Shown here in pieces: positions 12,299 to 63,786 of a DNA stretch of 64,000 bases. Every line of letters starts with the position of its first letter. Position 1 is the stretch's first letter. The stretch lies in contig CAIVPX010000127.1 in the NCBI GenBank assembly GCA_903907905.1, positions 1-64,000 of the forward strand. The letters are read 5' to 3'. Made by a program: the position numbers and the translations under genes. Source of the DNA: an uncultured bacterium. Its GTDB lineage: Bacteria; Pseudomonadota; Gammaproteobacteria; Burkholderiales; Burkholderiaceae_E. The notes beneath the pieces were generated by a model. It was not told the DNA's origin, did no database searches, and saw only the letters and a list, made by a program, of their open reading frames with translations.

Positions 12299-15200
12299 TC
12301 AGACGAGCACGCGCTCGATACCGCCCGCATTGGCACGCGCCACGTAGTCGGGCATCCAGTTTTCGCCCAGCACGTGCCGCGCGATTTCAACCACGATGTA
12401 GTCGGCCTCGGTACCGGTCTCATCACCGTAGCGCGACAACCCCTGCAAGCAAGACGGGCACGAGGTGAGCACCTTGACAGGCGCATTGACACCGCCGCTC
12501 TGCGACTGCAGGGCCTGGACGCCCTTGCGCATTTCTTCGGCCTTGCGAAACCGCACCTGCGTGGAAATGTCGGGCCGCGAGACGGCGAGCGTGCCCGATT
12601 CGCCGCAACAGCGATCGTTCTTTTCGACCCGTCCATTGAGGCTGTCATTGATGAGCTCGTTGACGACCTTCATGGGTTGATGGCTCTTCATCGGGCTGTG
12701 GCAGGGGTCGTGATACATGTAGCGCGTACCGGTGACCGATTCGAGCTTGACTCCCTTCTCGAGCAGGAATTCGTGAATGTCGAGAATGCGGCAGCCCGGA
12801 AAGATGCGCTCGAACTCATAGCCCTGCAACTGATCGAAGCAGGTGCCGCAGGACACGACCACCGTGCGGATATCGAGATAGTTGAGCGTGTTGGCCATGC
12901 GGTGAAACAGCACGCGGTTGTCGGTGATGATCTTGTCGGCCTTGTCGAACTGACCCGACCCGCGCTGGGGGTAGCCGCAGCAGAGGTAACCGGGCGGCAG
13001 CACCGTCTGCACGCCCGTGTGCCAGAGCATGGCCTGCGTCGCGAGCCCCACCTGCGAGAAGAGACGCTCGGAACCGCAGCCCGGGAAATAGAACACCGCC
13101 TCGGCCTCGGCACCAGCCCGCACCGGGTCCCGAATGATGGGCACGTAGCGACTGTCTTCGATGTCGAGCAGCGCCCGGGCGGTTTTCTTGGGCAACTGCC
13201 CCGGCATCTTGCGATTGATGAAGTGAACGACCTGCTCACGAACGGGCGCAATGCCCACGGTGGCGGGCGGATGGGCCGTCTGGCGGCGCGCCACCGACTT
13301 GAACAGATCGTGGGCGATGCGCTGAACCTTGTAGCCCACCCCCACCATGGCCGCGCGGGTCGCCTTGATCGTGTCGGGGTCGGTCGCGTTGAGAAAGAAC
13401 ATGGCAGCCGCGTTGCCGGCGTTGAACTTCTTTTTGCCAAGCTTGCGCAGCAGGTTGCGCATGTTCATCGACACATCGCCGAAATCGATGTCGACCGGGC
13501 AAGGCGCCTCGCACTTGTGACAGACCGTGCAGTGATCGGCCACATCGGAGAACTCTTCCCAGTGCCGAACCGAGATGCCGCGACGCGTCTGCTCTTCGTA
13601 CAGGAACGCTTCGATCAGCAGGGACGTGGCGAGGATTTTGTTGCGCGGCGAATAAAGCAGGTTGGCCCGCGGCACATGGGTGGAACACACGGGCTTGCAC
13701 TTGCCGCAGCGCAGACAGTTCTTCATCGACTCCGAAATGGCGCCAATGTCGGACTCGTGCAGGATGAGCGACTCGGCACCCATGAGCCCGAAGCTGGGCG
13801 TGTAGGCATTGCGCAAATCACCCGGCATGGCCGGATCGGCCATCAGCTTGCCCTTGTTGAAGCGCCCCTCCGGATCGATACGCGTCTTCCAGGCACGAAA
13901 ATCGGCGGTTTCCTCATCGGTCAGAAACTGCAGCTTGGTGATGCCGATCCCGTGCTCGCCCGAGATGACCCCGCCGAGCGAGCGCGCCAGTCGCATGATG
14001 CGCTCGACCGCCGCCTCGGCCTGCTTGAGCATGCCGTAATCGTCGGAGTTGACCGGAATGTTGGTGTGCACATTGCCGTCACCCGCGTGCATGTGAAGCG
14101 CCACAAACACGCGGCTGCGCAGGACGCGCTGATGCGTGCCTTCGATCGCCTCGATGACCGGTGCAAAGGTGAGCCCCGAGAACCATTGCCGCAGCGGCTC
14201 GCGCAGCTCGGTCTTCCAGGACACCCGAATGGTGCGGTCCTGCAGCAGGTGAAACAGCGTGGCCGAAGGCTCCTTGGCCAGGCGCTCGTCGACGCGGGTC
14301 ACCCAGTGCTCGAGCGAGGCGGCCTGCAAGTCAGGCGCCAGCGCCGAGAGCGGCGCGTCGATGCGGTCGAGCAGCCACTGCCAGCGACCGGCGGTGGTCG
14401 CGAGCGCATCGAGCGCGCGGGCCCTGCGGTCTTCCAGCAACTCGTCGGGCGTAAGCCCCTCGGCATCGGCCTCGTCACTGCGGCCCAGGCTCAAGGGGCC
14501 CGCGATCAAAGACTGCAATTCGTCGACCAGCCTGAGCTTGTTACGGATGGACAGCTCGATGTTGATACGCTCGATGCCGTCGGTGTATTCGGCCATGCGC
14601 TCAAGGGGAATCACCACGTCTTCGTTGATCTTGAAGGCGTTGGTGTGCCGGGCGATGGCTGCCGTGCGCGAGCGGTCGAGCCAGAAGAGCTTTCGGGATT
14701 CGGCCGAAACTGCGATGAACCCTTCGCCCGAGCGCGTGTTGGCCATGCGCACCACTTCGGAGGTGGCACGCGCCACACCCTCATCGTCGTCGCCGACGAT
14801 GTCACCGATCAGCACCATCTTGGGCAGACCGCCCCGGCGCGACTTGGTGGCGTAGCCCACGGCACGCAGATAGCGCTCATCGAGGTGCTCGAGACCCGCG
14901 AGAATGGCGCCGTGCGGCCTGCGGTCGAGATGGTGCTTGATCTCTACGATCGAGGGCACGGCATCCTTGGCCTGACCGAAAAACTCGAGGCATACCGTGC
15001 GGATGTGCGGGGGCATGCGATGCAGGACCCAGCGCGCCGAGGTGATCAGACCGTCGCAGCCCTCTTTCTGAACGCCCGGCAGACCCGCGAGAAACTTGTC
15101 GGTGACATCCTTGCCCAGACCGGGCTTGCGAAAGCGTGAACCGTCGATGTCGAGCTGCTCGCTGCGAATGGGCTCGCCACGCATGCGGCCATCGGCGCCC

Positions 15201-16330
15201 AGTTGCGCGGGCGCAAACCAGCTGAGCTCGAATCGGGCCGACGCTGCATCGTGAATCTTGCCCAGGTTGTGTCCCACGCGCGACACCTCGAGCCAGTTGC
15301 CGTCGGGATCGACCATGCGCCACCAGGCGAGGTTATCGATCGCCGTTCCCCAGAGCACGGCCTTTTTGCCCCCGGCATTCATCGCAATGTTGCCGCCAAT
15401 GCAGGAAGCGTCGAGCGATGTGGGATCGACCGCAAATACCAACCCGGCGTGCTCGGCCGCCTCGGTCACCCGCCGCGTCACCACGCCGGCGCCCGTGAGA
15501 ATGGTGGGCACCTCGGCCTCAAGCCCCGGCAGGCGCACCGTTTCGACCGCACCCAGCTGCTCAAGCTTTTCGGTGTTGATGACCGCCGACATGGGCGTAA
15601 GCGGGATGGCTCCGCCGGTGTAGCCCGTGCCGCCGCCCCGCGCGATGATGGTCAGGCCCAGCTCGATACACCCCTGCACCAGCCCGGCGATCTCGAGCTC
15701 GGAGTCGGGCGTAAGCACCACAAAGGGATACTCGACCCGCCAGTCGGTGGCATCGGTGACATGAGACACCCGAGACAAGCCGTCAAACCGGATGTTGTCG
15801 CGGGCCGTCACCCGGGACAGGCGCTTGAGCGCCCGGGCGCGAAGCGCCCCCACCTCGTTCAGATCGCGCTCGAAACTGCGCACGGCAGCGCCCGCACGCT
15901 CCAGCAGTCGCGCCACCTTGGCCGCGTGCGGCGCTTCGGCCTCGGACGACGCGGGCCCATTCGCGACTACGGGGGCGTCCCCCGACATCGCGTCCGGCTG
16001 ACGCCGACGCTCGACTTCGGCCAGGCGGTGATCGAGCGCCTCGATCAGCAGACGACGGCGCTTGGCGTTGTCGAGCAGGTCGTCCTGCAGGTAGGGGTTG
16101 CGCTGAACGACCCAGATGTCACCCAGCACCTCGTAGAGCATGCGGGCCGACCGCCCGGTACGCCGTTCGGAGCGAAGGTCCTCGACGATCGCCCAGGCAT
16201 CATCGCCGAGCAGCCGGGAGACGATCTCGCGGTCGGAAAACGAGGTGTAGTTGTAGGGAATCTCGCGCAGTCGCGCGCGAGCACCCGTGGCCTCGGGCGG
16301 CGCCAGATGAAAGGGGATAGGAGCGTTCAT
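12299..16330 (-). CDS. Giant FAD-binding oxidoreductase with 4Fe-4S and CCG domains (DUF3683-type)
   Basis: FAD_binding_4 ([24 protein letters not shown]), FAD-oxidase C-terminal domain ([15 protein letters not shown]), [16 protein letters not shown] and [17 protein letters not shown] motifs ([19 protein letters not shown]). Confidence 0.88.
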
Positions 16331-38475: not shown

Positions 38476-39339
38476 ATGTTCTTTTTCATCGGTCTCATCG
38501 TGGTGTTCGGAGCAGTGCTGGGCGGCTACGTGCTCGCAGGCGGCAAAATGGCGCCGATCATCAAAGCCGCGCCCTTCGAATTCATCATCATCGCCGGTGC
38601 GGCGATTGGCGCCTCGCTGGTTGGCAACAGCTTTCCGATCTTCAAGGCCGCCATGGGCGGTATCGGCAAATGCATCTCGGGGCCCAAATGGAAGCAGGAA
38701 GACTACCTCAACCTGATCGTGCTGGTGGGCAAGCTGCTCGGCGTGATGAAAAAGGAGGGCGTGGTCGCCCTTGAAGCGCACGTCGAGAACCCCGACTCAA
38801 GCCCCATCTTCGGTGAGTACCCCAAGCTGGCCAAAGATCATTCCATCGTGCAACTCATCTGCGACCCGCTTCGGCTGGCCGTGATCTCGCAGGGCAACCT
38901 CGACGCCGATGCGGTCGAGGACATCATGAAAACCGCCATCAAACTCCACCACCACGAAGTCATGCGCGCGCCGGCCGCACTTAACACCATGGCGGGCTCC
39001 ATGCCTGCGCTGGGGATCGTGGCCTGCGTGCTCGGGGTGGTCAAGACCATGGGCGCCATCGACCAGCCACCCGCCGTGCTGGGTGCGCTGATCGGCGCCG
39101 CGCTGGTGGGCACCATGCTGGGGGTGTTCCTGTCTTACGGCATGTTCGAGCCATTTGCGGGCCGGCTTGCGCAGGTCCTCGATGAGGAGGGTCAGGTCTA
39201 TCAGGTCATTCAGCAGATGATTGTGGCCAACCTCAAGGGCCATCCCCAGCCCGTCGTGATCGAAGCCGCCCGAGCCTGTATCAGCCATCACAATCAACCG
39301 AGTTTCTCCGAAGTCTTCGACAGTCTGCGAGGGGCCTGA
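38476..39339 (+). CDS. motA: Flagellar motor stator protein MotA
   Basis: FFIGLIVVFGAVLGGYVLAGGKM, HHHEVMRAPAALNTMAGSMPALGIVACVLGVVKTMG. Confidence 0.97.
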   Translation: MFFFIGLIVVFGAVLGGYVLAGGKMAPIIKAAPFEFIIIAGAAIGASLVGNSFPIFKAAMGGIGKCISGPKWKQEDYLNLIVLVGKLLGVMKKEGVVALEAHVENPDSSPIFGEYPKLAKDHSIVQLICDPLRLAVISQGNLDADAVEDIMKTAIKLHHHEVMRAPAALNTMAGSMPALGIVACVLGVVKTMGAIDQPPAVLGALIGAALVGTMLGVFLSYGMFEPFAGRLAQVLDEEGQVYQVIQQMIVANLKGHPQPVVIEAARACISHHNQPSFSEVFDSLRGA

Positions 39340-39376
39340 TGCGTACCTGCCCTGATTGCCGTCGCCGGGGTCGCTG

Positions 39377-40363
39377 ATGGCCGAAGCGAACAAGCCCGAT
39401 CCGGCCGCGGCAGCCGCCGAGGCACCGCCAGCCGCAGCGCCCGCCGAGGCACCGCCGGCCGCCGAACGGCCAATCATCCGCAAGATCATCGTCGAGGACG
39501 GTCACGGCGGCGCGCACGGCGGCGCCTGGAAGATCGCTCTCGCAGACATGATGACTGCGATGATGGCCTTCTTCTTGCTCATGTGGCTGCTTGGGGCGGC
39601 GAACGCCGATCAGCGCAAGAGCATCGCCGACTACTTCCGGCCCGCCTCACACAGTCAGATCAAATTCGGCGAACTGGCCGGATCAGACGGCCTGTTGGGG
39701 GGTAAGTCCATCATCGACCCCGATGGCTTTCCCTTCACCGCCAAGCAAACGGCCATGCTTGAACGCCTGACCCCTCGTGCGCAAGGCGGCCCCAGTACCG
39801 ATCAAGGCAGTTCGCAGCAGGAGCAAAACGCTGAGGGTCCGCAGCAGGATGCGCCCAGCAATGACCCTTCGCGGGGCCCGAAAAAAGTCGAGGATCAGGC
39901 CAATTTCGAGAAGTTGCAGGAAGAGTTGAAGCAAAAGCTCTCGGAGAATCCCCAACTCAAGGCACTACAGGATCAGGTCAACATCGCCCGCGAGAAGGAC
40001 GGTCTGCGCATCGAAATCATCGACAAGGCCGATTTTTCGATGTTCCGCCTGGGAACGGCTGACATCGATCCGCGCGCCGCGGCGCTGCTGGCCGAGGTCG
40101 CCAAATCGGTTCAAGGGCTACCCAACAAACTCGCGATCCGGGGTCACACCGACAGCCTGGGCTATGCCCCCGGCAGCGCGCGCAACAACTGGACACTGTC
40201 CACCGAGCGGGCCGATGCGACCAGACGCCTGATGGAGTCTTCCGGCATCTCCACATCGCGGTTCGAACGGCTGGAGGGCGTGGCCGACACGGCACCCTTC
40301 ATCCCCAGCAACCCCGCTGACCCGCGAAACCGTCGCGTCAGTATCACGGTGCTTAATCAATAG
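39377..40363 (+). CDS. motB: Flagellar motor stator protein MotB
   Basis: WKIALADMMTAMMAFFLLMWLLGA (TM with stator Asp), OmpA-like domain LAIRGHTDSLGYAPGSARNNWTLSTERADATRRLM. Confidence 0.96.
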   Translation: MAEANKPDPAAAAAEAPPAAAPAEAPPAAERPIIRKIIVEDGHGGAHGGAWKIALADMMTAMMAFFLLMWLLGAANADQRKSIADYFRPASHSQIKFGELAGSDGLLGGKSIIDPDGFPFTAKQTAMLERLTPRAQGGPSTDQGSSQQEQNAEGPQQDAPSNDPSRGPKKVEDQANFEKLQEELKQKLSENPQLKALQDQVNIAREKDGLRIEIIDKADFSMFRLGTADIDPRAAALLAEVAKSVQGLPNKLAIRGHTDSLGYAPGSARNNWTLSTERADATRRLMESSGISTSRFERLEGVADTAPFIPSNPADPRNRRVSITVLNQ

Positions 40364-40445
40364 ACCCTCAGGCGGAGCCCCAGCATCACGGGCTCTGCGA
40401 CATGGCAAGATCTCGCTCTTTGCATTGTCCCATCGCTGACCGATC

Positions 40446-43400
40446 ATGAGCGACAGCAGCCTTTCCGCGAGTGGCGCCGAGCCGCTGCCCGCGGCCCCCA
40501 CCAATAGCCGGCCCACGGGCGCGGTGCTGATTCAGGGAGCGGCGCAGGTCGGGCATTGGCTGAGCGCCAGCCACACGCTGAGCGACCCCAACTTCATTCC
40601 CGCCACCGGGAGCGGCGCGATCAGCTATCAATGGCGTGCCAATGGTGCGGCGATTGCCGGGGCCACGGGCGCGAGCTATCGCCTGACTGAAGCCGATCTG
40701 GGCAAACGCATCACCGTCACCGCGTCCTACACCGATGCGGGTGGCACGGCCGAGCGCGTGAACAGCGCCACGACAGCGGCGGTGGCAGCAGCCATCGACT
40801 ACGCGAGCTTTGTCGCCCTGCCCCGACTGCGCATCAAGACGAGTCTGGGCGATCTGGTGATCGAACTCGAGAGTGACCGCGCCCCCATCACGGTGGCCAA
40901 CTTCCAGCGCTATGTCGACAGCAATTTTTATTACGGCACCGAGTTCCATCGCATCCTCTCCACCTTCATGGCGCAGGGCGGGGGTTACGACTACACCGGT
41001 GGCGCCTACGTCTACAAGACCCCCACCTACTCGGCCATCACCCTCGAAAAAACCAGCAGCACGGGCTTGAGCAATCTGGCGGGCACGCTCGCCATGGCGC
41101 GAACCAGCGCAGCCAACAGCGCCACCAGCCAGTTCTTCGTCAATTTCGTCGACAACACCTTCCTTGATTCGGCACGCGCCTCGGACGGCAATGGCTACGC
41201 GGTCTTCGGCCGGGTGGTGGACGGCGGCAGCACGCTGGCCCAACTCAAACAGGTGGCGGTGGTCAACAACGGCTCGGGTGAAATCTCTCAACCCACGAGC
41301 GCCATCAGCCTGCTCGACATCGTGGCCGAGCCGGCGGCGGCCACCGCGCTGCCCACCGGCAAGGTTCGCATCAGCGGCACGCCGGTGCAGGGTCAGACGC
41401 TGCTGGCGCTTAGCACCCTCGCCGACGCCGATGGTATCCCGGGTGCCGGGCTAACCGGCGCGCTCAGCTATTACTGGAAGGCCGACGGCGTCATCATCCC
41501 GGGTGCCCTCGCGCAATCGCTCACGCTCACCTCGTCAATGGCGGGCAAGACCCTCACGGCTGAGGTTTCCTACACCGATCTCAAGGGCGCGAGCGGCCAT
41601 GTGGGCAGCGCCTCGGTGGTCGTGGGCAACCTCAACGATCTGCCCAGCGGGCGGGTGAGCCTCAGCGGCACCGTGGCTGCCGGCAGCACCCTGACCGCCA
41701 GTCAGAATCTCGCCGACCTGGATGGCATGCCGGCAGCAAGCGCCATCGGCTGGCAGTGGAAGGCCAATGGCAGTCCGATCGCAGGCGCCAACGCCAGCAG
41801 CTACACGCTGAGCGCGGCCGACCTTGGCAAATCCATCACGGCGACGGCCTCCTACACCGATCTGCGCGGCACGGCCGAGAGCGTCACCAGTGCGGCAGCG
41901 GGTACGGTCGACAGCCTGATGGTCTACCCGGCGCTGCCCCGCGTGTGGCTTCGAACCAATTACGGCGACATCCTGCTTGAACTGGAGGCGCAGAAGGCCC
42001 CCATCACGGTGGCCAATTTCGTGCGCTATGTGACCGATGGGTTCTACACCAACACCGTCTTTCACCGGATCATTTCGGGGTTCATGGCCCAAGGTGGCGG
42101 CTACACGATCACCTCCAACCAGTACACGTCCAAGGCCGCCACCTACCCAGCCATCGACCTGGAGAAGACCAGCATCACGGGATTGAGCAACGTCGCGGGC
42201 ACGATTGCCATGGCGCGCAGCAGCCTGCCCAAAAGCGCCACCAGCGAGTTCTTCCTCAACTTCAACGACAACCTGTTTCTCGATGCCGCCCAACAGCCCG
42301 ACGGCAATGGCTACGCGGTCTTCGGTCGAACCGTCGACGGCATGGCAACACTGGGACTGTTGAGCCAAATTCCGGTTGCCAACAACGGCGCGGGCGAAGT
42401 CAGCCTGCCCACCGTGGCAACCGTCCTGTACGGTGCCTACTACGACGCAGCGGCCCCGGCCGGCCAGGTGCTCATCACGGGGTCTGCCGCGCAGGGCCAA
42501 ACCCTCGTGGCGAGCAACAACCTGGTCGACCCCGATGGCAGCCTGAGCGTGCTTTTTTACCAATGGAAAGCCAACGGCGTGGCGATCGCGGGGGCCACGG
42601 GTTCGTCATTCACGCTGGGCCAGGCCCAGGCCGGCAAGGCCATCACGGTGGCAGCCGTCTACCAGGACGGCAAGTCCGCGTTCGGCTACGTCACCAGCGG
42701 CGCCACGGCGACGGTCGCCAATCTCAACGATCAGCCGACCGGGGAGATCACCATCAGCGGTCAGGCCGAACAGGGGCGCACCCTCACCGCCTCCCACACC
42801 CTGGCCGATCTCGATGGCATCCCCAGTTCAGGCGCCAATGCCATCCGCTACCAGTGGTCCGCCGACGGCGTCGCGATCGACGCAGCGACGGGCAGCAGCC
42901 TCAAGCTCTCGGCAGCCCTCGCGGGCAAGAGCCTCAGCGTGAGCGCGAGCTACACCGACAACGCGGGCAACGCGCAATCGGTGAGCAGCACCGCCACGCC
43001 GCCTGTGCTGTCGGCTGCGGTAACAGGCGATGTCTACCATTGGAAAAGCCACGCGCTGATGAGCGGGGTGACGGTTGCACTGCAGGCGCCTGGCTCGGCA
43101 GCCGATACTCCGCCGCTAGCCGTGGCCCGTAGCGGCATCGATGGCGCCTGGGCAGCCGAGGGGCTCGACTTCGATGCGCTCTACCAGCTGTCGGCCTCAC
43201 GCACCGCCAACGCCAGCGAGTGTGCGCAGGCCATCACCAGCGCCGACGCACTCGCAGCCCTCAAGCTTGTCATGGGCCGATCGGTCAATGCGGATACCGA
43301 TGGACCCGGCGCGCTCGCACCGCTGCCCGCCTCGCCTTATCAACTGCTCGCAGCCGACGTCAACCTTGATGGCCAGGTCACCACCCAGGACGCCCAGGAC

Positions 43401-43730
43401 ATTTTGGCCATGGCGGTCGGCAAGACAGGAGCTCGCGCACCCGTCTGGCGCTTCATCGATGAGTCGCAGCCTCTCTGGAACAGCGCGACCGGCGCTTCGA
43501 GCGTCACCGCCGCGGCCGTGCCTCAGAGCTTTGCGCGACCCCAGGCCCAGGCCGGCGCGGGCGAATCACACCACTGGGTGGCGGTGCTGGTGGGCGATGT
43601 CGACGGCAGTTGGACGCCCGTTGACTCGGGAACGGTGTCCACCGCAGGCTATGATCAGCTCAAGTCCGACTACTTCCGCGCCCTGGGGCTGGAGGGCAGT
43701 GCGCTCGCCCAATGGGGGCTGCTCGCCTGA
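40446..43730 (+). CDS. Large multidomain protein: two cyclophilin-type PPIase domains interleaved with five Ig-like repeats and a C-terminal dockerin-like calcium-binding region
   Basis: Two cyclophilin blocks (APITVANFQRYV...FHRILSTFMAQGGG...SQFFVNF; APITVANFVRYV...FHRIISGFMAQGGG...SEFFLNF); repeats YQWKANG..IAGATG..; C-terminal SADALAALKLVMG...ADVNLDGQVTTQDAQDIL. Confidence 0.88.
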   Translation: MSDSSLSASGAEPLPAAPTNSRPTGAVLIQGAAQVGHWLSASHTLSDPNFIPATGSGAISYQWRANGAAIAGATGASYRLTEADLGKRITVTASYTDAGGTAERVNSATTAAVAAAIDYASFVALPRLRIKTSLGDLVIELESDRAPITVANFQRYVDSNFYYGTEFHRILSTFMAQGGGYDYTGGAYVYKTPTYSAITLEKTSSTGLSNLAGTLAMARTSAANSATSQFFVNFVDNTFLDSARASDGNGYAVFGRVVDGGSTLAQLKQVAVVNNGSGEISQPTSAISLLDIVAEPAAATALPTGKVRISGTPVQGQTLLALSTLADADGIPGAGLTGALSYYWKADGVIIPGALAQSLTLTSSMAGKTLTAEVSYTDLKGASGHVGSASVVVGNLNDLPSGRVSLSGTVAAGSTLTASQNLADLDGMPAASAIGWQWKANGSPIAGANASSYTLSAADLGKSITATASYTDLRGTAESVTSAAAGTVDSLMVYPALPRVWLRTNYGDILLELEAQKAPITVANFVRYVTDGFYTNTVFHRIISGFMAQGGGYTITSNQYTSKAATYPAIDLEKTSITGLSNVAGTIAMARSSLPKSATSEFFLNFNDNLFLDAAQQPDGNGYAVFGRTVDGMATLGLLSQIPVANNGAGEVSLPTVATVLYGAYYDAAAPAGQVLITGSAAQGQTLVASNNLVDPDGSLSVLFYQWKANGVAIAGATGSSFTLGQAQAGKAITVAAVYQDGKSAFGYVTSGATATVANLNDQPTGEITISGQAEQGRTLTASHTLADLDGIPSSGANAIRYQWSADGVAIDAATGSSLKLSAALAGKSLSVSASYTDNAGNAQSVSSTATPPVLSAAVTGDVYHWKSHALMSGVTVALQAPGSAADTPPLAVARSGIDGAWAAEGLDFDALYQLSASRTANASECAQAITSADALAALKLVMGRSVNADTDGPGALAPLPASPYQLLAADVNLDGQVTTQDAQDILAMAVGKTGARAPVWRFIDESQPLWNSATGASSVTAAAVPQSFARPQAQAGAGESHHWVAVLVGDVDGSWTPVDSGTVSTAGYDQLKSDYFRALGLEGSALAQWGLLA
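41184..41209 (+). repeat. 26-bp exact direct repeat, copy 1 (within cyclophilin domain 1)
   Basis: GACGGCAATGGCTACGCGGTCTTCGG also at 42300-42325. Confidence 0.9.
42300..42325 (+). repeat. 26-bp exact direct repeat, copy 2 (within cyclophilin domain 2)
   Basis: Identical to 41184-41209. Confidence 0.9.
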
Positions 43731-43862
43731 GCCGGTGACGCAGCGGTCGGCGCAAATTCCGTGACCGGGTCGCGCGGTGCCAGGTGCGGCTCTCGCCCAA
43801 TCGGTTCACAATCTCGGCTTGGCCGGACCCGCGGAGGTCCGCGTAGCCGAAGGAGAATCGAC

Positions 43863-44840
43863 ATGCGAAAAACTCACCTGCGCCCTCTGCTTGTTGCCGC
43901 TCTGGGTGCCTGCCTGCTGGCGCTCACCTCCCAGGCCAGCGCCTGGCCCGACAAGCCGATCACCCTGGTGGTGCCCTTTCCGCCTGGCGGATCGAGCGAC
44001 GCGGTGGCGCGGGCCATTGCACCGGAGTTGCAGTCGCGCCTGGGCCAGTCGGTCATTGTCGACAATAAGCCCGGGGCGACGGGCACCACGGCCATCGCCC
44101 AGCTGCGGCGGGCCGCGCCCGACGGATACCAGTTGTTGGTCACCTCGCTCGGCCCCCTGGTCATCGCGCCCCACCTGATGAAAAGCGTGCAATACGACGC
44201 GAGCCGCGATCTCGAACCCATCACGGTCGCGGTGCAGGCGCCTAATGTGCTGGTGGTGCCGGCCAGTTCGAAACTCGCGAGCGTCGCCGACGTGATCGCG
44301 CTGTCCAAGGCCCAGCCCGGCAAGGTGAGCTACTCGTCGTCGGGTATCGGATCCAGCGATCACCTCACGGCCGAGTTGTTCTGGCAGCAAACCGGCAGCC
44401 CGGGGCTTCATGTGCCCTACAAGGGGGGCGCCCCCGCCATTCAGGATCTGCTCGGCGCTCAGGTCGAAGCCTCGTTTCAGAACGTCAATTCAGTCATGCA
44501 GCACATTCGCTCGGGGCGCTTGCGGGTGCTTGCGGTGACCTCAGGCGCTCGCATTGCGCTGCTGCCTGACGTGCCGACGCTGGCCGAGGCCGGCGTCGCC
44601 GACCTGGTGGTGTACTCGTGGCAGGCGGTGCTTGCGCCGCGAGGTCTGCCCGCAGAGGTTCGGGACCGCATCCATGCAGCGGTGGTGGCGGCGCTCAACA
44701 GCCCTCAGGTGCGGGCCCCGTTTGAATCAGTGGGGTTCGAGATCGTGGCCAACACGCCCGCGCAGTTCGCCGACTTTCAGCGCCGGGAATTCGCCCGCTG
44801 GAAACGCGTCATTGAAACCGGCCGTATCCAGGCCGACTGA
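43863..44840 (+). CDS. Tripartite tricarboxylate transporter substrate-binding (Bug) protein
   Basis: Signal peptide; WPDKPITLVVPFPPGGSSDAVARAIAPELQSRLGQSVIVDNKPGATGTTAIAQLRRAAPDGYQLL. Confidence 0.95.
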   Translation: MRKTHLRPLLVAALGACLLALTSQASAWPDKPITLVVPFPPGGSSDAVARAIAPELQSRLGQSVIVDNKPGATGTTAIAQLRRAAPDGYQLLVTSLGPLVIAPHLMKSVQYDASRDLEPITVAVQAPNVLVVPASSKLASVADVIALSKAQPGKVSYSSSGIGSSDHLTAELFWQQTGSPGLHVPYKGGAPAIQDLLGAQVEASFQNVNSVMQHIRSGRLRVLAVTSGARIALLPDVPTLAEAGVADLVVYSWQAVLAPRGLPAEVRDRIHAAVVAALNSPQVRAPFESVGFEIVANTPAQFADFQRREFARWKRVIETGRIQAD

Positions 44841-44986
44841 GCCCGAGAAAACTGGCTGGATGCGTCCGGGCGCGCCGGGGATGTGTCGCTCCTCGAGTGG
44901 CGGACGCGCGCGGGCTAAAAAGTTCGGGCGCGAGCGCTTGCAACCGAATTAGGTCACTCGCCACCGCAGTGATCACATGGAGCGCA

Positions 44987-45011
44987 TTGCGCGCAGGGCC
45001 GCTGCGCGCAA
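44987..45011. terminator. Perfect 10-bp inverted repeat downstream of tRNA-Thr
   Basis: TTGCGCGCAG-GGCCG-CTGCGCGCAA; 3' of the minus-strand tRNA; no T-run seen. Confidence 0.35.
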
Positions 45012-45027
45012 CTGGGCGAATCGAAAC

Positions 45028-45103
45028 TGGTGCCGGCTACCTGACTCGAACAGGTGACCTACCGCTTACAAGGCGGTTGCTCTACCAACTGAGCTAAGCC
45101 GGC
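45028..45103 (-). tRNA. tRNA-Thr (anticodon TGT), CCA encoded
   Basis: Minus strand GCCGGCTTAGCTCAGTTGGTAGAGCAACCGCCTTGTAAGCGGTAGGTCACCTGTTCGAGTCAGGTAGCCGGCACCA: complete cloverleaf with anticodon loop CTTGTAA. Confidence 0.96.
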
Positions 45104-45132
45104 GTGAGGCAATGATAGTTGGACTCGCCCGT

Positions 45133-45945
45133 TTATTTCACGCGCTTGAGGTGCGCCCGACCCGCCTTGGGCGCGGGCGGTGGCTCCTCGGGCGGAGGGG
45201 GTGTCTCAGAGGCGCCCGCGCTCGGCGCGGGTGACAGGCCCGGAGGCTCTGCTGTACCAACCGCTGCGAGCGGTGCGCGACGCCGGCCCTTGGCTGCCGG
45301 CTTTCGTGTCTTGGCGGCGGGCGTCCCGGCGGGAGATTGAGACGCGTCTGGCGCCCCGATCTCGCTCAGAGCGGGGGTTGGGGCGGAACCCGCCTGCACC
45401 TCGAACGGCGCGGGCGAGTCAACCGATGGATTCGGCGCAGGCACCGCGCGCAAGGGCGACACGCCTTCGGGCTTTTGCGAGGCGGGCCGCTCGCGCGGCG
45501 CAGCACCCGACGAACCGGCACCGTGCGCTGCCCCCTCTGGCACCAGTTTGGGCCGTTCGGGCTTGCCAGTCTGGGTTGCCAGCTGCGGCCCTTGCGCCTG
45601 CGGGCGGACGGGTTCAGGCGCCAGCGCCAGCGGCTTGGGGACATCAAAGGCCATGCCGTGACCGGTCTCTTGGGCGTAGATGGCCGAGACGTTGCCGATT
45701 GGCACCGACACCTGACGTACCGCCCCGGAGAACCGCGCCTCGAATTCGATCAGCTCATTGCCGATTCGCAGGTGGTTGGTCGCCTGCGCCGACACGTTCA
45801 GGACGATCTCGCCATTACGGACAAACTCGCGGGGGACGAAAGTATGCTCATCCACCAGCACTGCGATGTAGGGCCGAAAACCGCTGTCCTCGCACCACGC
45901 GTGGATAGCCCGGATCAGGTACGGCTTGGTCGAGATGTCGGCCAT
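45133..45945 (-). CDS. sspB: ClpXP protease specificity-enhancing factor SspB
   Basis: STKPYLIRAIHAWCEDSGFRPYIAVLVDEHTFVPREFVRNGEIVLNVSAQATNHLRIGNELIEFEARFSG; long P/A-rich tail; C-terminus HLKRVK. Confidence 0.95.
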   Translation of the reverse strand: MADISTKPYLIRAIHAWCEDSGFRPYIAVLVDEHTFVPREFVRNGEIVLNVSAQATNHLRIGNELIEFEARFSGAVRQVSVPIGNVSAIYAQETGHGMAFDVPKPLALAPEPVRPQAQGPQLATQTGKPERPKLVPEGAAHGAGSSGAAPRERPASQKPEGVSPLRAVPAPNPSVDSPAPFEVQAGSAPTPALSEIGAPDASQSPAGTPAAKTRKPAAKGRRRAPLAAVGTAEPPGLSPAPSAGASETPPPPEEPPPAPKAGRAHLKRVK

Positions 45946-61326: not shown

Positions 61327-63786
61327 TCAGAGCGAAGCCGCCAGTGCGGCAAGCATCGCCTGGTTTTCTTCGGGAGAGCCCACCGTGATTCGCAGACAGT
61401 TGGCAAGAAGCGGATGCATTTTACCGACGTCCTTGACCAGCACACGCCGCTCGCGCATGCGCTGGTGGGTGAGCGCACTGTCAGCCACCCGAGCGAGCAG
61501 GAAGTTGGCCCGAGAATCGATGGCCTGGACGCCCGCCATCGACTGCAGGGCCGCGAGCAACACCGAGCGCTCGCGCCGGATCTGCTCGGCCTGCGCATCT
61601 AGCACATCGAGGTGTTCGAGCGCGAATTGGGCCGCGGCCTCATTGAGGACGCCGATGTTGTAGGGCGGGCGCACCTTATCGAGTTGACTCAACCACTCGG
61701 GCGCGGCCGAGAGATAGCCCAGCCTCAGCCCGGCCAGGCCCAGCTTGGAGAGCGTGCGCATGACGACGAGATTGGGATAGTGCGGCAGACGTGGCATCCA
61801 GGTGTCGAGCGCGAAGGGCTGATAGGCCTCATCAATGACGACCAGCCCGGGGGCCTCGGCAAGAATGGCCTCGATATGGACCGAATCGAAGCAGTTGCCA
61901 GTCGGGTTGTTCGGAAAGGCCAGAAAGACCACCGCCGGGCGGTGCCTGCGCACAGCCTCGAGCATGGCTGGCAGGTCGAGGCTGAAGTCGGCAGCGAGCG
62001 GCACCCCCACAAAACGACTGCCGGCGAGCTTGGCCGAGACCTCATACATCACGAACGAGGGCACCGGCGCGAGTACGGTCGCCCCGGGGCGGGCGGTGGC
62101 CACGCACAGAAGGGTGATGAGTTCGTCGGACCCGTTGCCCAGCAGCACCTCGTAGCCTGCGGGCACGCCCAGTTTCGCGCCGATCGCAGCCTTTAGGCCG
62201 GCATAAGCGGGCGCCGGATAACGATTGAGCAAGGCCGCCGCCAGCCGCTCGCCCAGGGCGCCTTGAAGCGCCGGTGGCAGGGTGTATGGATTCTCCATGG
62301 CGTCCAGCTTGACCAGCCCGGCCGCGGGCGGCACGTGATAGCTCGTCATGGCGAGCACCTCGGGGCGGATCAGCCCCTGGACCCGGGCTGCAAGCGCCGA
62401 ACCGGCCGATGGGTGAGTGCCCGCCGGATCGAGTCGCAGCTCGGCGCTGCGCGCATGGGCCTCGAGCCCCTCGCCCCGCGCCAGCGTCGCGGCCACCCGA
62501 CCCAAAGCCTGGGCGGCATCGCGCGACACTTCGATGATGGAGCTGCGTTTCTGAAAATCGTAGACGCCCAGCGGCGAGGAAAAGCGCGCCGTGCGCATGG
62601 TCGGCAGCACATGGTTGGGGCCGGCGCAATAGTCGCCCAATGACTCCGACGCATACGGGCCCAGGAACATCGCTCCCGCATGGCGGATGCGATCGGCCCA
62701 GCGCCGGGGGTCAGCCGCGATGATTTCGAGGTGCTCGGGCGCGATGTGGTTGGCCAGTTCGCAAGCCTCGTGCATGTCGCGAACCTGCACCAGCATGCCG
62801 CGATCGGCCAGCGATCGCTCGATGACGGCCCGACGCGGCATGGTGGGGAGCAGGCGAGCGATCGACTCGGCCACCCGATCGATGAAGGCGGCATCCGGGC
62901 ACAGCAGGATGGACTGCGCGAGTTCGTCGTGCTCGGCCTGGGAAAAGAGGTCCATGGCCACCCAGTCGGGATCGACCGAACCGTCAGTGAGCACCAAAAT
63001 TTCGCTGGGGCCGGCGATCATGTCGATCCCCACCACCCCAAACACGCGGCGCTTGGCCTCGGCCACATAGGCATTGCCAGGGCCGACGATCTTGTCGACG
63101 GCGGGCACCGTGCGGGTACCAAAGGCCAGCGCGGCCACGGCCTGCGCACCGCCCATCGTGAACACGCGGTCGACGCCGGCGATGGCCGCCGCGGCCAGCA
63201 CCATGGAATTTCGCAGGCCGTCGGGCGTGGGCACCACCATGATCAGTTCGCCCACCCCTGCCACGCGCGCGGGGATCGCGTTCATGAGCACCGACGACGG
63301 GTAGGCGGCCTTGCCCCCGGGCACATACAGGCCCACGCGGTCGAGGGGACTGATTTTCTGGCCGAGTCGGGTCCCGTCGAGCTCGACATACTCCCAGGAC
63401 CGGGCGAGCTGGCGCTCGTGATAGGCACGAACGCGGTCGGCCGCCGATTGCAGCGCCTCGCGCTGCTCGGCGCCGAGCGCGGCCAGGGCCGCGTCGAGCG
63501 TGGCCCGAGGCAGTTCAAGGTCGGCCGCGTCGTCGATCTGCAGGCGATCGAAGCGACGTGTGAATTCGATCAGCGCCGCATCGCCGCGGCGGCGCACCTC
63601 GTCGATGATTTGCCCGACCACCTGCCCGACCGACTCGTCCTGCTGGGCCTCGTAGGCGAGGAGGGCTGCCAGTCGCGCGTCAAAGTCGGGGTCGCAGCTA
63701 TCGAGGCGATGCACCATGCCCGTAGCCTCGCGCAGGGCCCTGCCGCCTGGGGTGCCGACATCGGCCTTGAACGCGCCGGCGCTCAT
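61327..63786 (-). CDS. hisDC: HisD-HisC fusion: histidinol dehydrogenase (N-term) + histidinol-phosphate aminotransferase (C-term)
   Basis: Single 819-aa frame: His[57 protein letters not shown]; His[49 protein letters not shown]. Confidence 0.93.

Follow-up and report, generated by a model that had tools for sequence, protein, structure and literature searches.

What does a large protein with two cyclophilin domains do, and does it do it outside the cell? The question is raised by an open reading frame at positions 40446-43730 (+) of the window, the whole 64,000-nucleotide stretch of DNA analysed here. The frame is intact, encoding 1094 aa from an ATG start with no internal stops, and is considered coding because GC3 was high over its full length (0.76-0.85 throughout) compared to positions 1 and 2 (0.44-0.73).

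The gene and its locus

The domain order proposed in a first-pass annotation of the sequence, in which Ig-like repeats and cyclophilins (Cyps) alternate ahead of a dockerin-like end, was borne out by alignments, with the dockerin match falling below threshold (Table 1). No hydrophobic stretch or signal peptide was found at the N-terminus (MSDSSLSASGAEPLPAAPTNSRPTG...), as that annotation had also stated. The ZirU family model (NF040485) matched the protein in four stretches, confined to the repeats, at 97.5 bits (cut-off 100), and no match to RTX repeats or to a protease (HExxHxxGxxH, Met-turn) was obtained with Pfam or by alignment. A full-length AlphaFold model built with 6 sequences had a pLDDT of 48.9 and carries no structural claim.

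Table 1. Features of the window gene and its upstream neighbours
Feature	Position	Strand	Evidence
Whole gene, Ig-Cyp-Ig-Ig-Cyp-Ig-Ig-CTMOD	40446..43730	+	ORF, Pfam, alignment; same-locus orthologs in four other species
Short N-terminus, residues 1-22	40446..40511	+	Alignment and intergenic comparison
Ig-like repeat 1, residues 23-115	40512..40790	+	Alignment; ZirU_fam stretch 57-106
Cyclophilin domain 1, residues 124-292, FHRILSTFMAQGG, SQFF	40815..41321	+	Pfam PF00160 stretch 128-274
Ig-like repeats 2 and 3, residues 301-487 (301-396, 399-487)	41346..41906	+	ZirU_fam match, alignment
Cyclophilin domain 2, residues 496-660, FHRIISGFMAQGG, SEFF	41931..42425	+	PpiA match 489-657; NCBIfam 491-650
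Ig-like repeats 4 and 5, residues 671-857 (671-760, 765-857)	42456..43016	+	ZirU_fam match, alignment
CTMOD, residues ~858-1094: beta-sandwich, dockerin-like helices, GDVDGSW, DYF..AQWGL tail	43017..43727	+	Alignment, model, genus-only distribution
motA-motB, conserved upstream neighbours, outside the protein	38476..40363	+	NCBIfam and synteny

The locus order, motA-motB upstream of the giant gene and sspB-sspA-cytochrome bc1 downstream, was conserved in all five sequenced species of the genus. MotA matched TIGR03818 (MotA1) above the cut-off, and the best match of MotB was NF006548 at 228 bits, under the cut-off of 277. No clear ribosome-binding site was found before the ATG of the giant gene, a promoter search there returned no promoter-like site above chance, and no type I secretion system (T1SS) genes were seen beside it. 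The position of this putative isomerase gene between motAB and sspB/sspA (window 38476-45945) in all five species recalls a report that Legionella Mip, also a peptidyl-prolyl isomerase (PPIase), binds SspB and flagellin (PMC10017501), a resemblance that is probably a coincidence.

 A single 819-aa frame at 61327-63786(-) is a hisD-hisC fusion (hisD at residues 57-451, hisC at 474-816, both above the NCBIfam cut-off) with no stop at the junction, and a 1343-aa frame at 12299-16330(-) combines GlcD-like FAD oxidase and GlpC/LdhH-like Fe-S regions, resembling large fused dehydrogenases of a type already known.

Protease-bearing orthologs in the genus

Whole-genome searches identified the gene once in the window's own genome, and the four remaining species of the genus (G001-G004) have a single ortholog apiece. 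No ortholog was detected in the 69 other family genomes at E <= 1e-44, and none further outside the genus in family-wide or order-wide (399 genomes) searches. A scan of genome contigs with the whole window protein gave no close relatives, and the order sample, in which two candidates per genome were scored, yielded a single 343-aa Ig-Cyp frame, in G372.

The four orthologs are longer (1885-1968 aa, about 1900; the G004 gene is split over two contigs), with an extra N-terminal region of about 880 aa that consists of a PPC-like domain, a serralysin-type zinc metalloprotease and RTX repeats. All four have the features of M10B serralysins, namely the HE[IV]GHALGLKHP zinc site, a Met-turn (MTY or MSY) and RTX repeats (PF00353), and their protease domain matched Erwinia PrtC, Pseudomonas alkaline protease and Serratia serralysin in the PDB with E values of 1e-25 to 1e-22. 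This N-terminal protease half is missing in frame from the window copy, where residues 1-22 occupy its place; the initial MS alone aligned with the orthologs before the window protein enters the first Ig-like repeat.

Flanking proteins of the window species have 78-79% identity to those of the other four, which share 89-97% among themselves. With the window species as the outgroup of the five, parsimony is equally served by loss of the protease in its lineage and by gain in the other four. We favor loss, since other cyclophilin-bearing giant exoproteins also have a protease. Several genomes are fragmented, and a deletion introduced during assembly is in principle another way to account for the missing N-terminus.

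The cyclophilin domains

Pfam PF00160 (Pro_isomerase) matched the window protein in two stretches with 249.9 bits against a cut-off of 21.7 (whole-protein E 1.6e-74), and Cyp2 matched solved PpiA over residues 489-657 with an E value of 6.6e-37. The FHRIxxxFMAQGG motif in both domains, and SQFF in the first where the second has SEFF, had been noted in the first-pass annotation and were confirmed in the sequence. The catalytic residues are kept in Cyp1 (R169/F174/M175/Q177/F231) and in Cyp2 (R541/F546/M547/Q549/F603), taking CypA R55, F60, M61, Q63 and F113 to be the reference positions. At the position of CypA Q111, Cyp1 has Q229 and Cyp2 has E601. In the initial collection of about 50 cyclophilin domains, only this giant gene family was seen to have SEFF instead of SQFF.

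Between the G001 and G003 orthologs, dN/dS was lowest in the protease (0.079), Cyp1 (0.082) and Cyp2 (0.095), compared to 0.15-0.20 in the segments for the Ig and RTX repeats and the C-terminus. For the pair of G001 and the window copy, in which synonymous sites are near saturation, Cyp1 was again lowest (0.17) and Cyp2 (0.23) was close to Ig-like repeats 2 and 3. With dN/dS among the lowest in the gene, the cyclophilins appear to be kept as enzymes would be. One ortholog departs from this pattern. In G002 (L058:2446-8352(-)) the catalytic motif of Cyp2 has been lost (VHKV..SMVLVG; VHKVAPGSMVLVGS) with Cyp1 intact, indicating that two active domains are not essential; this Cyp2 is predicted to be a natural inactive counterpart. 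The remaining cyclophilin domains seen whole in the gene family retain their active-site residues.

The C-terminal module and probable export

The C-terminal module (CTMOD), roughly the last 200 residues, was modelled with a pLDDT of 86 as an N-terminal beta-sandwich followed by dockerin-like helices. The best hit of a PDB fold search with it had an E value of 0.035, short of significance, and CnaB and X-dockerin-like folds were matched weakly. Dockerin_1 (PF00404) matched residues 932-984 at 15.2 bits (E 0.026), below the cut-off of 22.9, with one complete loop where type I dockerins have duplicated Ca-binding F-hand repeats. No cohesin was found in the five genus genomes, so cellulosome-style anchoring was rejected.

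The module was present in 38 large frames of the five genus genomes (G000-G004), 5 to 13 per genome, and in none of the 69 other family genomes or the order genomes searched. Besides the giant gene, the window's genome has eight CTMOD frames, and related Ig repeats abound in several of these. In G000 (C1) genes for an ABC protein (C39-like) and HlyD are followed by a CTMOD cargo gene as the third member of the cluster, in G004 (C90) a CTMOD protein is encoded directly behind the orthologous HlyD (76% identity), and in G002 (C80) an ABC-HlyD pair has a CTMOD frame some 2 kb upstream of it. CTMOD also forms the end of all five Cyp-less serralysins of the genus, one in each species, and serralysins are classical T1SS substrates. 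In one 2008-residue protein (L049) the module is internal, at residues 243-422, so that the entire CTMOD cannot strictly be called a C-terminal signal. Cyclophilin was absent from 23 of the 27 CTMOD frames examined, the window gene not being counted.

Because CTMOD ends both the genus serralysins and T1SS-adjacent cargo, T1SS export is the best inference for the window protein, which is most likely exported by this route, and CTMOD is probably a secretion-associated module. The link to type I secretion suggested at first pass thus gains support, and the proposal of an extracellular protein carrying PPIase modules is backed by the gene anatomy and the T1SS association, both read from sequence. 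The accompanying comparison with giant adhesins fits less well: the nearest kind of protein, to judge from the orthologs, is serralysin-type proteases with cyclophilins, which makes an ancestral link to extracellular proteolysis likelier than one to adhesion.

Serralysin-cyclophilin fusions elsewhere

The protease subfamily was represented at ten loci in 74 family genomes, and five of these loci also carried a cyclophilin. The ten comprise the four giant orthologs, a locus in G021, from a different genus, and five copies without a cyclophilin, one per genus member. The G021 fusion has a single Cyp and crosses a contig break, the contig ends sharing 46 residues: the first part (L074:16111-17589) encodes RTX and serralysin and the second (L072:3-3266) RTX, cadherin-like, He_PIG, Big_12, cyclophilin, Big_5, RTX and DUF4214 domains. 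In a phylum-wide sample such proteases were found in 28 of 399 genomes. G936, from outside the family, encodes a serralysin, a cyclophilin, Big_5 and ALTTAQ repeats in one 1693-aa frame (L161:1818-6896), the one fusion outside the family among the loci examined, most of the others having been read for 1.5 kb on each side, a span that remoter Cyps could escape. A class-wide search with the G021 protein gave no further RTX-Cyp protein. A 715-aa cyclophilin frame in G711 was rejected as a fusion, being a run-on frame around a canonical cyclophilin.

Cyclophilin trees, the second built without the long branches of G002 Cyp2 and L014, contained a split with support of 100/98. Secreted Ig-Cyp lipoproteins joined the genus Cyps on one side of it, and canonical PpiA/PpiB-type domains joined the Cyps of G021 and G936 on the other. 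This opposition indicates that a cyclophilin was joined to a serralysin at least twice. The nearest relatives of the giant-gene Cyps in the tree were the Ig-cyclophilin lipoproteins of the genus together with the G372 Cyps. Lipoproteins combining He_PIG Ig-like domains and a cyclophilin recur in the genus, two of them in the window's genome, and G372 has two tandem cyclophilin lipoprotein-like genes adjoining each other; the loci concerned are L056:1605-2894(-), L055:8988-10292(-), L064, L065 and L073.

Comparison with known systems

Taken singly, cyclophilins, serralysins and T1SS exoproteins are all familiar; no description of a serralysin-cyclophilin fusion was found in the open literature searched on cyclophilins with serralysins or type I secretion. 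The four orthologs share with M10B serralysins (Erwinia PrtC, Serratia serralysin) the protease domain, RTX and presumably T1SS export. Their Ig repeats, pair of cyclophilins and dockerin-like end are not found in the classical form, and the window protein lacks both protease and RTX. LapA-like giant adhesins have an N-terminal retention module and an RTX C-terminus; of these, RTX was looked for in the window protein and gave no match. A 2010 review of RTX proteins counted three predicted members as cyclophilin-like PPIases (PMC3034196). As described there, these resemble the genus giants in being exported RTX-type proteins with a cyclophilin-like annotation, and the review's passage on them mentions neither a protease fusion nor a double cyclophilin (PMC3034196); the window copy differs from them in having no RTX.

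PpiA, the enterobacterial periplasmic cyclophilin, has the fold family and active-site pattern of the window Cyps but is a single Sec-exported periplasmic domain, whereas the window protein has a pair of them set among Ig repeats and no signal peptide. The genus Ig-cyclophilin lipoproteins (L056, L055, L064, L065) also combine extracytoplasmic Ig-like and cyclophilin domains; they differ in their single Cyp, lipoprotein signal, length of about 430 aa and Ig family (He_PIG). A loose functional parallel to the pairing of a PPIase with a secreted metalloprotease is found in Legionella, where the surface PPIase Mip and the metalloprotease ProA have collagen and flagellin as common targets (PMC10017501), although Mip and ProA are separate, unrelated proteins, an FKBP rather than a cyclophilin and an M4 rather than an M10 protease.

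Proposed function and alternatives

Our leading interpretation, which we hold with about equal belief and doubt, is that the window protein, exported by a T1SS, works outside the cell as a prolyl isomerase and in its ancestral form cooperated with a protease joined to it in one polypeptide. The protein would leave the cell without a signal peptide through a type I system recognizing its C-terminal end and act outside as a PPIase with two cyclophilins spaced by Ig-like repeats. For cleavage near proline, most proteases require the chain to be extended and in trans. In the relatives the Cyps would most likely isomerize Xaa-Pro bonds within stretches of the substrate, or prevent partly unfolded substrates from becoming rigid, and the attached serralysin-type protease, acting on extended trans-Pro chains, could then cut the isomerized substrate. 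In the window species the isomerase arm probably acts, for the benefit of other secreted proteases, on extracellular clients of the same kind; one such protease, a CTMOD serralysin (C95, cut off by a contig end), is still encoded in the window's genome. Both PPIase activity and cooperation with proteolysis are deduced here from sequence.

Help with proteolysis is favored over help with folding because the genus Cyps sit on a large serralysin while most CTMOD frames have none, and because two other lineages also put a cyclophilin on serralysins. Protease help as the only role would predict decay of the Cyps after loss of the protease, yet they are constrained in the window lineage, which suggests that the isomerase arm is valuable without a covalent protease. 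The constraint is also accounted for if the Cyps are foldases for T1SS cargo, speeding outside the cell the folding of their own Ig repeats and of other Ig-rich CTMOD proteins. Type I substrates exit the cell unfolded, folding of many Ig domains is limited by prolyl isomerization, and such cargo is at hand in the eight further CTMOD frames of the genome. This alternative, which includes the self-folding suggested at first pass, is nevertheless disfavored and seems unlikely to us, given that 23 of 27 CTMOD frames have no cyclophilin and that the Cyps are tied to the protease and not to the cargo class: those of the orthologs are on a serralysin-bearing protein, and those of G021 and G936 on serralysins with other C-termini.

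The Cyps might instead be non-catalytic ligand-binding domains of a surface adhesin or matrix protein. PPIase folds sometimes moonlight, the exoprotein is large and Ig-rich, and the Cyp2 domain of G002 has been retained though its active-site motif is gone. Legionella Mip, moreover, binds collagen (PMC10017501). Active-site residues kept in the other whole Cyps, and a dN/dS as low as that of the protease, make a purely binding role improbable. We give far less credence still to the window copy being a non-functional remnant left by deletion of the protease half: the absent N-terminal half and the lack of a clear ribosome-binding site before the ATG or of a promoter-like site above chance would fit decay, but the 3.3 kb frame is intact with strong GC3 bias, the active sites are kept, the Cyps are constrained, and the native locus and start region are preserved.

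The preferred reading, a secreted isomerase with an ancestral protease partner, can be extended to a broader proposal, which we offer tentatively and consider rather doubtful as a whole: serralysin-cyclophilin fusions may make up a class of secreted, isomerase-assisted proteases that has gone unreported and arose independently at least two times. The Cyp of such a protein would convert cis-prolyl bonds for the cutting of proline-rich or folded extracellular proteins, with the window protein a derived protease-free version.

Significance

The genus-specific CTMOD marks a set of large exported-type proteins. Extracellular PPIases are known, and their role outside the cell is rarely clear. A protease-cyclophilin protein together with a protease-free sister version would offer a direct test of whether prolyl isomerization limits extracellular proteolysis or the folding of T1SS cargo.
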